The translations under genes were made by a program, and so were the position numbers. Shown one piece after another: positions 33,908 to 40,589 of a stretch of 40,589 nt of DNA (its first letter is position 1; every line of letters begins with the position of its first letter). The stretch is from Cyanobium sp. Prado107 (GTDB lineage Bacteria > Cyanobacteriota > Cyanobacteriia > PCC-6307 > Cyanobiaceae). The stretch is taken from positions 1 through 40,589 of the forward strand of contig JALOOQ010000005.1 of NCBI GenBank assembly GCA_025454305.1, in the 5' to 3' direction. Under the pieces are notes generated by a model. The model was not told the DNA's origin, did no database searches, and worked only from the letters and a program-made list of their open reading frames with translations.

Positions 33908-34323
33908 GGATCCGCCCACTGCAACAGCCGCAGCGCCAGTTGCAGATCTCCCTCCAGCCAGGCGCGGACCGCCATGGCCCGGCGCGGGTCATAGAAGCTC
34001 TGGCGCCGGTACCAGACGAACACATCGCCATCCCCCTTGTGGCCATTGCAGGCCAGACAGGCGGGAACGCAGTTCTCGGTGACGCTCGATCCCCCCCGGC
34101 TGCGGGGATGCACGTGGTCGATCGATTCGGAGCGTTCACCGCAGTACACGCAGGTCTGACCGGTGAGTTCGTGCAGGGACCGGCGCCAGCGCCGGTGTTT
34201 GAGCTTGGGACAGAGGTCCTCGAGGGACACGGCGTTGAACGACTGGCTCTGCACCCCGGCGCGGTGCGAACCCCCATCCCTGGCCTGCATGCGCGTGGCT
34301 CGGTTGGCACAGTTATGCCGCAT
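33853..34323 (-). CDS. HNH endonuclease (start uncertain; ORF can extend to 34452)
   Basis: [61 protein letters not shown]: CxxC...DHVHP...N...CxxCN HNH motif. Confidence 0.9.
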
Positions 34324-35953
34324 GAGAAGCGGTGGCACTGTGTCCGGGGCTGCAATCAGGCCTCTCCGTTGCAGCCTGCGTCTGGGCGCCAGCGGCAGCA
34401 TCGAGGTGATCAGCCCGTTCGACGCCGTCACCCAGGCCCAGTTGCGCGCCATCCGGCCCCGGGGTCAGTGGAATGGCCAGCGGCGCTGCTGGGATTTCCC
34501 CCTCGAAGCCGCCGGGGCCCTGCGCCGCACCCTGGCCGACCGCTTTCCGGTGGAGCCGGAACTGGCCCAGTGGCTCGGCTGGCTGCAACAGCCCCTGCCG
34601 CCCCTGCCGCCCCATCGCCTGCTGGTGGAGGCCGCGGCCCTGGGCGAGCCGCTGGCGGATGGCCGCGGCCTGTTCGCCCACCAGCGGGCCGCGGCCCGCT
34701 GGCTGCTGGCCCGGCGAGGTGCCGTGTTGGCCGATCCCATGGGCCTGGGCAAGACCCTCTCCGCCCTGGCGGCCGCCAGGGCGATGGTGCGCCTGGCGGA
34801 CTGTCGCGTGGTGGTGCTGGCGCCGGTGGGGCTCCACGACCACTGGCGCAGCGAGGCCCTGGCCCTGGGGCTGCGGCTGGAGATCCACAGCTGGGCGCGT
34901 CTGCCGGAGTCCCTGCCCCCGGCCGGCACCGTGCTGATCGCCGATGAGGCCCATTATGCCCAGAACGCGCACACGGCACGGTCGCGGGGACTGCTGCGCC
35001 TGGCCCGGCATCCCCGGCTCCGGGCCGCCTGGCTGCTCACGGGCACGCCGATGAAGAACGGTCGTCCGGCCCAGCTCTATCCCTTGCTGGCGGCCATCGG
35101 CCACCCGTTGGTGCGGGACCGGCGTGCTTTCGAGGAGCAGTTCTGTCAGGGGCACTGGTGCGAGCGCGGTGGCCGGCGCATCTGGCAGGCCAACGGCGCC
35201 AGCAACCTCGCTGAGCTGCACCGCCTCATCCGTCCGCTGGTGCTGCACCGCCGCAAGCAGGACTGCCTCGATCTGCCCCCCAAGCAGCGATTGCTGCAGC
35301 CGGTGGAGCTGGACGCCGCTCAGGCCCGCGGGTTCGAGCATCAGCTCCAGCGCCGGGTGGCCGACTTCCGCCGCCGTGCGGAGCGGGGGGAGGTGCGCCG
35401 GGATGCGGAGGTGCTGGCCGTGCTCACCGCCCTGCGCCGCATCGGCTCCGACTACAAGCTCCCGGCGGCGCGGTCACTCGTGCGCCGCCTGCTGGAGCAG
35501 CGGCAGGCGGTGGTGGTGTTCACCGGCTTCGTGTCCACCGCCCGCCTGCTGCGGCACGATCTCGGTGTCGGTGCCCTGCTCACCGGCGCGGTCCCCGTGC
35601 CCGAGCGCCAGCGGCTGGTGGAGCGCTTCCAGGCCGGCGCCACGCCGCTGCTGATCGCCACCTACGGCACGGGTGGCCTCGGCTTCACGCTCCACCGCGC
35701 CCGTCATGTGCTGCTGATCGAGCGGCCCTGGACGCCCGGCGATGCCGAGCAGGCGGAAGACCGCTGCCATCGCATCGGCATGGGCGGCAGCCTCACCAGC
35801 CACTGGCTGCAGCTGGGGGTGGCCGATCAGCTGGTGGATGGTCTGATCGCCAGCAAGGCCGAGCGCATCGCCCTCACCCTGCATCGCGGCGACAAGCTGC
35901 TGCGGCGCCGGGGGATCACGGCGATGGTGCGGGAGGTGCTGCAGGAGTGGTGA
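34322..35953 (+). CDS. SNF2-family helicase, SMARCAL1/annealing-helicase-like with N-terminal HARP-like segment
   Basis: [35 protein letters not shown] (HARP-like), [102 protein letters not shown]. Confidence 0.9.
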
Positions 35954-36338
35954 GCGGTACACCCTCGCAGAGCCTCCGGCGCACCTCCAGGTCGCTGCGC
36001 AGCTGTTCGTCCAGCTGCTCCGCGGGCAGCCTGCCGGCCAGACGCAGGGCCTCACCCAGATCCGCACAGGCGGCCTCGTCGTCTCCGGCCAGGCTGTGGA
36101 GCAGATAGCGGTCGTTGCGCGGGCCGGGGTCGTCGGGAAAGGCTTTCACCACCTCGTCGCAGAGGGTGATCTGCTCCTGGAGTCGATCCAGCGTCACGTT
36201 GCGCAGGCAGTCGTCGCTGCGCACACCCTCATCCTGGGGGAGGGGCTGCTCACTGCAGCCGGCCAGCGCCAGGACGATCAGCAGCAGGGGCCCGACCAGG
36301 CGGGTCGGCCAGGCCTCAGTAGCCGTAGCGTTCGCCAC
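35916..36338 (-). CDS. Putative lipoprotein (GTG start)
   Basis: Signal with lipobox LALAGC; TPR-like body (ITLCDEVVKAFPDDPGPRNDRYLLHSLAGDDEAACADLGEALRL). Confidence 0.65.
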   Translation of the reverse strand: MANATATEAWPTRLVGPLLLIVLALAGCSEQPLPQDEGVRSDDCLRNVTLDRLQEQITLCDEVVKAFPDDPGPRNDRYLLHSLAGDDEAACADLGEALRLAGRLPAEQLDEQLRSDLEVRRRLCEGVPLTTPAAPPAPSP

Positions 36339-36738
36339 GGCTCATGGGGGTGCCGGCCGTCTGGGGAGCCGCTTCGGTCTCCTCCCGGCGGAACAGATCA
36401 CCGAGGTGCATGCCGCAGTTGGGGAAAGTGTCAGGACTCTGCACCACCGCCTCGGTGATCATCACGGCCGCGTGCTGCGGGGAGGTGCGAAACAGTCCGC
36501 CTCCCTGGCGCTTGATCACCTCGTAGGCCGCATCCCAGCTCACCTGATGGGTGTTGCCGCTGCCGCGCATGAAGCAGTAGATCTGCGCTCCCCGCCCCCC
36601 CGGGGTGGAGATCGCCACAGGCACCACGCCGCCGTCCTGGGCGCCTGCCGCCAGGGGCGCCAAGGCGCCGGCGAGCAGCGCCAGGCCCAGTCCCCAGGGC
36701 CGCAGCCTGGCGGGCAGAGACCACCTCGGATCGGCCAT
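36316..36738 (-). CDS. Conserved cyanobacterial secreted/periplasmic protein of unknown function
   Basis: Signal peptide (LRPWGLGLALLAGALAPLAAGAQ) then GAQIYCFMRGSGNTHQVSWDAAYEVIKRQGGGLFRTSPQHAAVMITEAVVQSPDTFPNCGMHLGDLF. Confidence 0.75.
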   Translation of the reverse strand: MADPRWSLPARLRPWGLGLALLAGALAPLAAGAQDGGVVPVAISTPGGRGAQIYCFMRGSGNTHQVSWDAAYEVIKRQGGGLFRTSPQHAAVMITEAVVQSPDTFPNCGMHLGDLFRREETEAAPQTAGTPMSRGERYGY

Positions 36739-36848
36739 GGCTCCTCGTGCACACGCGATCGTCACGGTATCGATCCCCTTGGGCCGCGTCGAGATGGGCC
36801 GCGGGCGGAAGTGGCCGGACGGAGCAGGAGAGCGACTTGGATCCGCGG

Positions 36849-37364
36849 TCAGCCTGGGGGTTGGGCGACCGGCAGCACCAGCCTCAGCACCAGGGGCAGC
36901 ACGATCAGAACAGTGATCAGACGCACGGCGTGCAGCACGGCCACGGCAGCTCCCACTCCGAATTCGGCCCCAGCCAGGCTCATGCCGCTGATCCCTCCGG
37001 GAGCGGAGCCCAGCAGCGCGACCACCGGATCGATGCCGAGCAGACGGCTGCAGATCAGGGCCACCGCCAGGCCGGCCAGGATGAGCGTGCCGGTGATCAG
37101 CAGCGCCGGCCGCCACAGCTGGCGCAGCTCCATCAGCGCCGCTGCGGTGATGCTGGTGCCGATGACGGTGCCGATGGCGATCTCCAGCACCGTGCGGGTG
37201 CCCTGGGGCCACTGGGCCGGCTCCAGGCGGCCCGTGGCGCTCACCAGTCCCGCGGCGAGCAGCGCGCCTGCCAGGGGTGCTGCTGGCAGGCCGGTGCGCA
37301 GAGCGAGCACACCACCGGCCGCCCCCGCCAGGGCGAACAGCAGCAGGGTCCAGGGGTCAGCCAT
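36849..37364 (-). CDS. AbrB-family (COG3180-type) membrane protein, single-repeat length
   Basis: GLPAAPLAGALLAAGLVSATG, VLEIAIGTVIGTSITAAAL, LGSAPGGISGMSLAGAEFGVGAAVAVLHAVRLITVLIVLPLVLR. Confidence 0.8.
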   Translation of the reverse strand: MADPWTLLLFALAGAAGGVLALRTGLPAAPLAGALLAAGLVSATGRLEPAQWPQGTRTVLEIAIGTVIGTSITAAALMELRQLWRPALLITGTLILAGLAVALICSRLLGIDPVVALLGSAPGGISGMSLAGAEFGVGAAVAVLHAVRLITVLIVLPLVLRLVLPVAQPPG

Positions 37365-37448
37365 CCAGCCATCATCGCCAGTGGTGTGCGCCCACGGCTT
37401 GGCCAGCCGGCGCGGATGTGCTGTCATCGGCGTCACGGCACCGATTCG

Positions 37449-37793
37449 ATGACCTCCGCATCCGTTTCCTTCCGCATCACCCGCAGCACCGAGGATCTGG
37501 CCCACACCACCCACGCTCTCTCGCTGCGGCTGGTGAAGCTCGAACAGCGACTCGAGGCTCTCGAACTGCAGATCCAGCATGCTCTGGAACGGCGTGATCA
37601 GCGTGACCCCCTGGAGCTGAACAGCCTCGAGAACGTGGAACGGTTGCTGCACGACTGCCGCTCCCTGCTTGGCCTGGATGGGGATGCCTCCCAGGAAGCG
37701 GCGACCGGTTCAGCATCGAATTCAGACGACGGAATCGAATCCGGCGCTGTGGATGTGCTGGCCATGGACAGCCCGGAGGAGCTTGCGGCCTAG
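37449..37793 (+). CDS. Small coiled-coil protein
   Basis: TEDLAHTTHALSLRLVKLEQRLEALELQIQHALERRDQRDPLELNSLENVERLLHDCRSLL. Confidence 0.65.
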   Translation: MTSASVSFRITRSTEDLAHTTHALSLRLVKLEQRLEALELQIQHALERRDQRDPLELNSLENVERLLHDCRSLLGLDGDASQEAATGSASNSDDGIESGAVDVLAMDSPEELAA

Positions 37794-38894: not shown

Positions 38895-39137
38895 ATGACG
38901 GCAACACTGCCCGCCAAGCCCCGCCTCGCGGTGCTCCAAACCCCGGCCAGCACGGACATCGACCCCAAGGGGCAACTGCGCAGCCGCATCGCCCAGCTCG
39001 AACAGGAAGCCCGGCTCGCTGCCGATGCCGGGGAGATCGAGACGTCTGCCCGGGTCATCCTGCAGGCGCTCGACTGCGAGCGACGTCTCGCCGCCATCGG
39101 GCCTCAGGTGCTGCAGGTGATCAAGCCGAGGAGCTGA
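38895..39137 (+). CDS. Small helical hypothetical protein
   Basis: GQLRSRIAQLEQEARLAADAGEIETSARVILQALDCERRLAAIGPQVLQVIKPRS; ATG start and codon use consistent with coding. Confidence 0.65.
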   Translation: MTATLPAKPRLAVLQTPASTDIDPKGQLRSRIAQLEQEARLAADAGEIETSARVILQALDCERRLAAIGPQVLQVIKPRS

Positions 39138-39314
39138 GCCTCTTTCCAGGCAACTGTCCGTGTCTCACTCCGTGCCTCACGTTGCGGTGACCGCTCTGCG
39201 GCTTTCTCGGACTGTCCAGGCGGGGTGCCGCCGTGATTGCAACCCTTCCGAACCGGCCAGCACGGGGTGACCCGGCAGGCATCAAGGGGGCGATTGCAGT
39301 TGGCGATCGGTGAA

Positions 39315-39360
39315 AGCGGGTGACCGGACTCGAACCGGCGACGTTCAGCTTGGGAAGCTT
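39315..39360 (-). pseudogene. 3'-half remnant of tRNA-Gly(CCC): anticodon loop to discriminator base; no 5' half (candidate integration att scar)
   Basis: Minus strand AAGCTTCCCAAGCTGAACGTCGCCGGTTCGAGTCCGGTCACCCGCT: anticodon loop TTCCCAA, T-arm GCCGG-TTCGAGT-CCGGT, 3' acceptor strand CACCCGC+T; the 5' acceptor GCGGGTG and a D-arm are absent upstream. Confidence 0.8.
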
Positions 39361-39498
39361 CTCAGGCAATCAGCAAGAGCGCTTGCAGGGCAATGAGTCT
39401 CAGGGGTTTGTAGGGCTGGATGTGAGAAGGTCTGTGAGAAGCCTTGGGTCCTGGGTCTTGCCGTGTGATCTCCTTCAGGATCAGAAGCTCGGCATGGA

Positions 39499-40589
39499 TC
39501 ACTGATCGGAAATCAGGGAATACCCCATCGCCCGATAGCCCCGCAGTCGCCGCTCCCACATGCGTTGCGGCACCGGATGGCCGAGATCCAGCCAGTCGAT
39601 GATGCGCACGATGTTTTTCCCAGCTTGCTGCCGGTGCAGGCGGCCGGCGTATTGCTGCAGCGTGCCCTTCCACGACACGGGCATGGCCAGTAACAGGGTG
39701 TCGAGTGGTGGATGGTCGAAGCCTTCACCCACCAAACGCCCGGTGGCCACCACGATGCGGGGTGCATCGGGAGGCAACGCTTGCAACGCGGCCAGGGTGG
39801 CGCTGCGCTGGCGAGCGCTCAGTCGCCCATGCAGCAGGAACAGGTTCGGCACCTGTTCAGCCAGAGCTGTCGCGATCGCCGTGATGTGATCGGTGCGCTC
39901 ACTGAGTAGCAGCAGTTTGCGGTCCTCTTCCCAGCAGGCAAGGGCCTCGGCCACGATCCGTTCGGTGCGTGACTGATCCTCCGCCAGCCGGCGCATCAGC
40001 TCCTGGATCGGCAGATCCACGGGCAGTCCCTCAAGCTGATGGGTGCGACTCACCAGTTCCAGGGTCTGGGGTGCCCCGATCGGTCGCTCGGCGGAGTGGC
40101 GGATGGGCCCGCATTGCATGAACAGGATTGGCTGCAGACCGTCGCGGCGCACCTGCCCGTAGTTCTGTGCCATGGGGTTCACCTCGCCCTTGCGCACCAC
40201 TGACTGCATCACGGCGATGTCGAGCTGGCCGGTGGGCTTGGCTTTGCCGCCACCGATGCAACCGATCGCTTCGGGTGGGACGTCCAGGAAGGTCTGCAAT
40301 CGTTCCTGCCACTGACGCAGCAGTTCGGTCCGGTGGACCAGCACAAGGGAGTTCACGCCTCGCCGGGCCAAGATCGCTGCCGCCACGATGGTTTTGCCGA
40401 AGGCCGTCGGTGCCTGCAGCACGCCGATGTCGTGGTGCAGCATCGCCTCCACCGCAGCCTCCTGGTCGGTGCGCAGTTGGCCTGTGAAGTCCAGTTCCAG
40501 GGTCTGGGGTGCCCCGATCGGTCGCTCGGCGGAGTGGCGGATGGGCCCGCATTGCATGAACAGGATTGGCTGCAGACCGTCGCGGCGCA
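39499..40589 (-). CDS. DEAD/DEAH SF2 helicase of the TOTE-type primase-helicase family (N-terminus beyond window; internally rearranged as assembled)
   Basis: GQLRTDQEAAVEAMLHHDIGVLQAPTAFGKTIVAAAILARRGVNSLVLVHRTELLRQWQERL, RRDGLQPILFMQCGPIRHSAERP, VVATGRLVGEGFDHPPLDTLLLAMPVSWKGTLQQYAGRLHRQQAGK; frame open to the window edge. Confidence 0.88.
   Translation of the reverse strand, partial: RRDGLQPILFMQCGPIRHSAERPIGAPQTLELDFTGQLRTDQEAAVEAMLHHDIGVLQAPTAFGKTIVAAAILARRGVNSLVLVHRTELLRQWQERLQTFLDVPPEAIGCIGGGKAKPTGQLDIAVMQSVVRKGEVNPMAQNYGQVRRDGLQPILFMQCGPIRHSAERPIGAPQTLELVSRTHQLEGLPVDLPIQELMRRLAEDQSRTERIVAEALACWEEDRKLLLLSERTDHITAIATALAEQVPNLFLLHGRLSARQRSATLAALQALPPDAPRIVVATGRLVGEGFDHPPLDTLLLAMPVSWKGTLQQYAGRLHRQQAGKNIVRIIDWLDLGHPVPQRMWERRLRGYRAMGYSLISDQ
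40053..40151. repeat. 99-bp exact direct repeat, inner copy
   Basis: Identical to 40491-40589 (offset 438 bp); left flank differs (a vs t). Confidence 0.97.
40491..40589. repeat. 99-bp exact direct repeat, outer copy (runs to the window end)
   Basis: Identical to 40053-40151 base for base by reading. Confidence 0.97.

Follow-up and report, generated by a model that had tools for sequence, protein, structure and literature searches.

The orphan piece of tRNA-Gly(CCC) near the right edge of the DNA analyzed here is almost certainly the attR scar of an integrative element that a tyrosine integrase put into the tRNA-Gly(CCC) gene. The analyzed stretch of 40,589 nucleotides, hereafter the window, is the entire contig C208 of Cyanobium sp. 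Prado107 (genome G000), a draft in 242 contigs that is 88% complete. The displaced 3' fragment occupies positions 39314 to 39359 on the minus strand (46 nt, AGCTTCCCAAGCTGAACGTCGCCGGTTCGAGTCCGGTCACCCGCTT) and has 45 of its 46 nt in common with the intact tRNA-Gly(CCC) gene of the same genome, which lies on another contig (C163, 13066 to 13137; E = 3e-16). It spans the anticodon stem-loop (AGCTTCCCAAGCT), the T-arm, the 3' strand of the acceptor, the discriminator T, and one extra T. Its element-side neighbor is GAGAAGC, versus ATGTCAGC in the tRNA, and the D-arm and 5' acceptor strand are absent beside it. As expected for a partial gene, neither ARAGORN nor Rfam detected a tRNA in the window. 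A sequence-only reading had recognized a minus-strand 3' half at 39311 to 39364 whose similarity to a tRNA stops in the anticodon stem; both the fragment and its truncation are real, with true bounds slightly narrower than those proposed.

The chromosomal side of the scar was identified by synteny. An intergenic stretch (39138 to 39313) separates the scar from an 80-amino-acid open reading frame (ORF) (38895 to 39137, plus strand), which tblastn places directly after tRNA-Gly(CCC) in empty sites. Further left follow a 121-amino-acid ORF, an AbrB-like gene (36849 to 37652, minus strand; Pfam PF05145), a DUF6554 gene (36316 to 37212, minus strand; PF20191), an SNF2-type helicase gene (34163 to 35953, plus strand; PF00176), and an HNH gene, the last four named by Pfam; the AbrB-like, DUF6554, and SNF2-type genes served as markers of the chromosomal flank. 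Beyond the HNH gene lie what we take to be pdxA-like and then accB-like genes. On C163, the genes 5' of the intact tRNA presumably encode an aminotransferase of the serine/alanine-glyoxylate type and GMP synthase. The two flanks are adjacent in six related genomes (G001, G004, G009, G014, G016, and G021), where the order is aminotransferase, a single intact tRNA-Gly(CCC), the 80-amino-acid ORF, and the AbrB-like gene, with no fragment. When C163 and the window were joined at the tRNA, the alignment to the closest relative, G004, ran unbroken through the tRNA and the intergenic stretch into the 80-amino-acid ORF. This synteny and the continuity of the joined flanks show that sequence left of position 39314 is chromosome and sequence right of it is element, the polarity that had been proposed from the letters alone. 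The intact tRNA-Gly(CCC) predicted to lie to the right of the fragment, sharing its 46-nt 3' end with the fragment, and the empty site predicted in relatives were likewise found, the former on a different contig; the fragment was seen in none of the element-free relatives.

The right end of the element (39360 to 39498, minus strand) is noncoding, has a GC content of 55%, and is kept in other filled sites, which retain TGAGACTCA ... GAGAAGC ahead of the scar. Within it, CTTCTCACA occurs twice in direct orientation, the copies lying 12 nt apart (39421 to 39441, minus strand); they are candidate arm-binding sites of the integrase. The same repeat pair is present at the same place in G008, G011, the Erken MAG, 1G10, G050, and G126, and a similar pair also follows the intact tRNA. 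Going outward from the helicase gene at the contig edge, the order is a noncoding stretch, the paired repeats, GAGAAGC, and the scar. The right-hand segment was described at the outset as lower in GC and helicase bearing; its GC content is indeed 64.4% versus 69.8% for the rest, a modest difference (about the 7th percentile of stretches of the same length), and the helicase gene is cut by the contig end.

The opposite end of the element is visible on C163, where a reading frame that starts 99 nt 3' of the intact tRNA stays open for at least 54 codons and runs off the contig. This N-terminal piece of an integrase (54 to 63 codons, the C-terminal catalytic part lying beyond the contig end) agrees with the tyrosine recombinase expected near the intact gene. 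Its full-length relatives lie 99 to 105 nt after tRNA-Gly(CCC) in G312, G126, and G061; overall, the relatives are found in the same orientation 99 to 121 nt 3' of tRNA-Gly(CCC), tRNA-Gly(TCC), tRNA-Arg(TCT), and once tRNA-Val(TAC). The full-length proteins match the phage integrase PHROG_1 (E of 2e-14 to 2e-21) and keep the Arg...Arg...His...Tyr pattern of tyrosine recombinases, except for the copy at tRNA-Arg in G008 (L104, 373 to 1689), where Asp replaces the presumed catalytic Tyr (AADSRW versus AAYSRW). Identification came from PHROGs, Pfam giving no match to these integrases other than a more distant one on contig C142. Many of these genes have a repeat pair of the form TCTCA-N7-TCTCA overlapping their start.

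Other integrases were observed along the way. In G000, a second, apparently broken member of the same family lies about 106 nt 3' of tRNA-Arg(TCT) (C124; L109, 1297 to 2187), and a different integrase-like frame downstream of tRNA-Ala(CGC) runs off its contig (C89; L084, 1 to 1524). Close relatives of the tRNA-Arg(TCT) integrase (88 to 93% identical) are located at the ends of two IMG/VR contigs of 39 and 67 kb (L257 and L259). Both contigs are classed as viral, a hint that prophages or satellites may use integrases of this family too.

No sequence in the assembly joins C163 to the window, and the end of C163 showed no overlap with other contigs of G000. With the intact tRNA and the scar on separate contigs, it is synteny and the comparison with relatives, not the assembly, that connect the two ends of the element. 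The complete genome G126 shows a filled site end to end, with both ends on one contiguous sequence. There, the aminotransferase gene, tRNA-Gly(CCC), an integrase gene, an element of about 48 kb, and a first tRNA fragment are followed by a second integrase gene, a primase-helicase gene, the repeats, a second fragment, the 80- and 121-amino-acid ORFs, and the AbrB-like gene. The left end of the second element (14.26 kb) is 94.9% identical to the tail of C163 over 333 nt, the N terminus of its integrase is identical to that of C163 at 54 of 54 residues, and at its right end the features follow one another as in the window. Its cargo comprises a PIN-domain protein, a short-chain dehydrogenase, a phosphorylase-family protein, and an amidohydrolase-family protein; its primase-helicase gene is split by an IS-like transposase pair, and its integrase frame is broken. 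Searching the G000 assembly with the interior of the G126 element returned nothing. The match of both ends to G126 suggests that C163 and the window are the ends of one element or of one tandem array.

In the proposed mechanism, the incoming element would itself have carried a copy of the tRNA gene's 3' part. Recombination within the shared stretch from the anticodon to the 3' end would join the chromosomal 5' half to the 3' half brought by the element, so that the tRNA stays intact, as on C163, while the chromosomal 3' part is displaced to the far end, at 39314 to 39359 of the window. The element would then read from the intact tRNA with the integrase gene first to the primase-helicase gene last, followed by the paired TCTCAC repeats and the scar. 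The crossover probably took place in or near the anticodon loop. The sole mismatch between fragment and tRNA lies in the T-loop, where the fragment and the empty-site relative G004 have T and C163 has C. This difference, a single base, fits a crossover upstream of it and close to the anticodon loop, the fragment then being what remains of the original chromosomal copy.

The scar could be an old relic of an element that has decayed and become immobile, a reading to which we give appreciable weight, albeit somewhat less than an even chance. The integrase is missing or broken in the copies of many relatives (G008, M_surface_7, G002, and the second copy in G126), and their primase-helicases are often broken as well. 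In G000, however, the start of the C163 integrase gene is open and in frame to the contig end, the repeats are in place, and the fragment and the tRNA differ by a single base.

Tandem stacks, recognized by successive tRNA fragments or by a second element end after a fragment, were observed at tRNA-Gly(CCC) in G050 (L264 to L265; three tandem fragments with primase-helicases), G126 (L260 to L263), G012 (L077), and, probably, the Erken MAG (L111). Arrays with internal fragments at this very site make it conceivable that two or more elements lie between the tRNA and the scar in G000 and that the C163 integrase and the window helicase belong to different ones. We consider this rather unlikely, given that in G126 the end with the C163-type integrase and the end with the primase-helicase belong to a single element and that just one orphan tRNA-Gly(CCC) fragment was detected in G000. 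A split or intron-containing functional tRNA gene, which had been named as a possible refutation of the integration, has nothing in its favor and is ruled out by the intact tRNA-Gly(CCC) in G000 and the plain tRNA in relatives; equally without support, a chance resemblance or a tRNA piece duplicated without integration is dismissed by the E value of the match and by a break in flanking synteny exactly at the fragment.

The gene that reaches the contig edge (39499 to 40589, minus strand) is the C-terminal part of a TOTE-type primase-helicase gene. Its product is 84 to 87% identical to residues 426 to 545 and 575 to 796 of a 797-residue homologue from G008 (P0002), in which Pfam recognizes an AEP-TOTE primase (PF22548, E = 1e-98) fused to a ResIII helicase; the window holds the helicase end alone. 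Compared with this homologue, the assembled helicase lacks residues 546 to 574, a 29-residue stretch with the DECH motif, and the 5' end of the assembled gene duplicates residues 576 to 607. The final 99 nt of the contig (40491 to 40589), unremarked in the sequence-only reading, are an exact copy of 40053 to 40151. A repeat placed like this usually indicates an assembly-graph edge, although together with the missing DECH segment it may reflect a genuine in-frame duplication or rearrangement. Because the repeat lies at the contig end, the assembled helicase sequence is not fully trustworthy and the terminal portion of the contig may be assembled wrongly; the order assembled for the 5' part of the gene is suspect.

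Of 300 genomes sampled from the family, 31 contain the primase-helicase. At 10 loci, including the window, no more than about 210 nt separate the end of its gene from a tRNA-Gly(CCC) fragment; Synechococcus sp. 1G10 and Microcystis elabens FACHB-917 are among the named carriers of a primase-helicase gene followed by such a fragment. Homologues in proteobacteria and a few other bacteria are about 57 to 65% identical. As tRNA-fragment matches flank only 4 of the 54 proteobacterial TOTE loci checked, the link between TOTE genes and tRNA ends is mainly picocyanobacterial in this sample. At 80% coverage or more, the primase-helicase was matched in 91 plasmid records and in no phage record. Several elements have genes resembling toxin-antitoxin systems, with a Phd/YefM-type antitoxin, ahead of the primase-helicase (L072, 2396 to 2940; L077, 8906 to 10301). 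We favor the reading that the primase-helicase replicates the excised element, given that AEP primases are common in integrated elements (PMC5862659) and that its end position is constant across elements; the alternative, implied by the Pfam name, is that it is defense cargo.

It is well documented that integration into a tRNA gene can regenerate the target and displace a fragment of it (PMC4383910). The Islander islands described there share the regenerated tRNA, the displaced fragment, and the internal tyrosine integrase, and do not differ in principle from what is seen here: an intact regenerated tRNA, a displaced 3' fragment, and an empty site, which together mark a tRNA-integrated genomic island, were all found, and the integrase inside the element is represented by its N-terminal part and by full-length relatives. 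Tycheposons of Prochlorococcus, as described second-hand in PMC10872708 and PMC11389934, likewise have a tRNA at the border with an adjacent tyrosine recombinase, both of which are present here, as well as variable cargo and a picocyanobacterial host. PMC10872708 gives them a length of 4 to 200 kb; the G126 element measures 14.3 kb and that of G008, which has no integrase, about 3.5 kb. The integrated elements with AEP primases (PMC5862659) also carry primase-helicase fusions and are often tRNA integrated with direct-repeat attachment sites; that work covers the PrimPol-PV1 supergroup, whereas here, judged by the homologue, a primase of the AEP-TOTE family is joined to a ResIII/SF2 helicase. 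PICMI phage satellites (PMC10803314) are also small islands with an integrase and a primase, but they target fis, encode AlpA, and have a primase of the DUF3987 type; with its tRNA-Gly target and, in the homologue, an AEP-TOTE primase domain, the present element is not one of them.

The phenomenon is therefore an ordinary and well-known event, here documented nearly end to end in a very small cyanobacterium. Particular to this case are the target hotspot, the repeats at both ends, the distal primase-helicase, and the tandem stacking. Tentatively, and with somewhat less than even confidence, these elements may form a distinct, unnamed family in freshwater and brackish picocyanobacteria. One integrase family would be split by target among tRNA-Arg(TCT), tRNA-Gly(TCC), tRNA-Gly(CCC), and tRNA-Val(TAC); elements at the glycine targets would keep the TOTE primase-helicase, which in those at tRNA-Gly(CCC) would sit right beside attR and act as the replicase of the element, and the family would stack into tandem arrays.

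In Cyanobium sp. Prado107, these results resolve, to a precision of a few bases, where the chromosome gives way to mobile DNA; for the family, they mark tRNA-Gly(CCC) as a recurrent landing site. The constant distal position of the TOTE primase-helicase gives a handle on whether it serves the copying of the element or is defense cargo.
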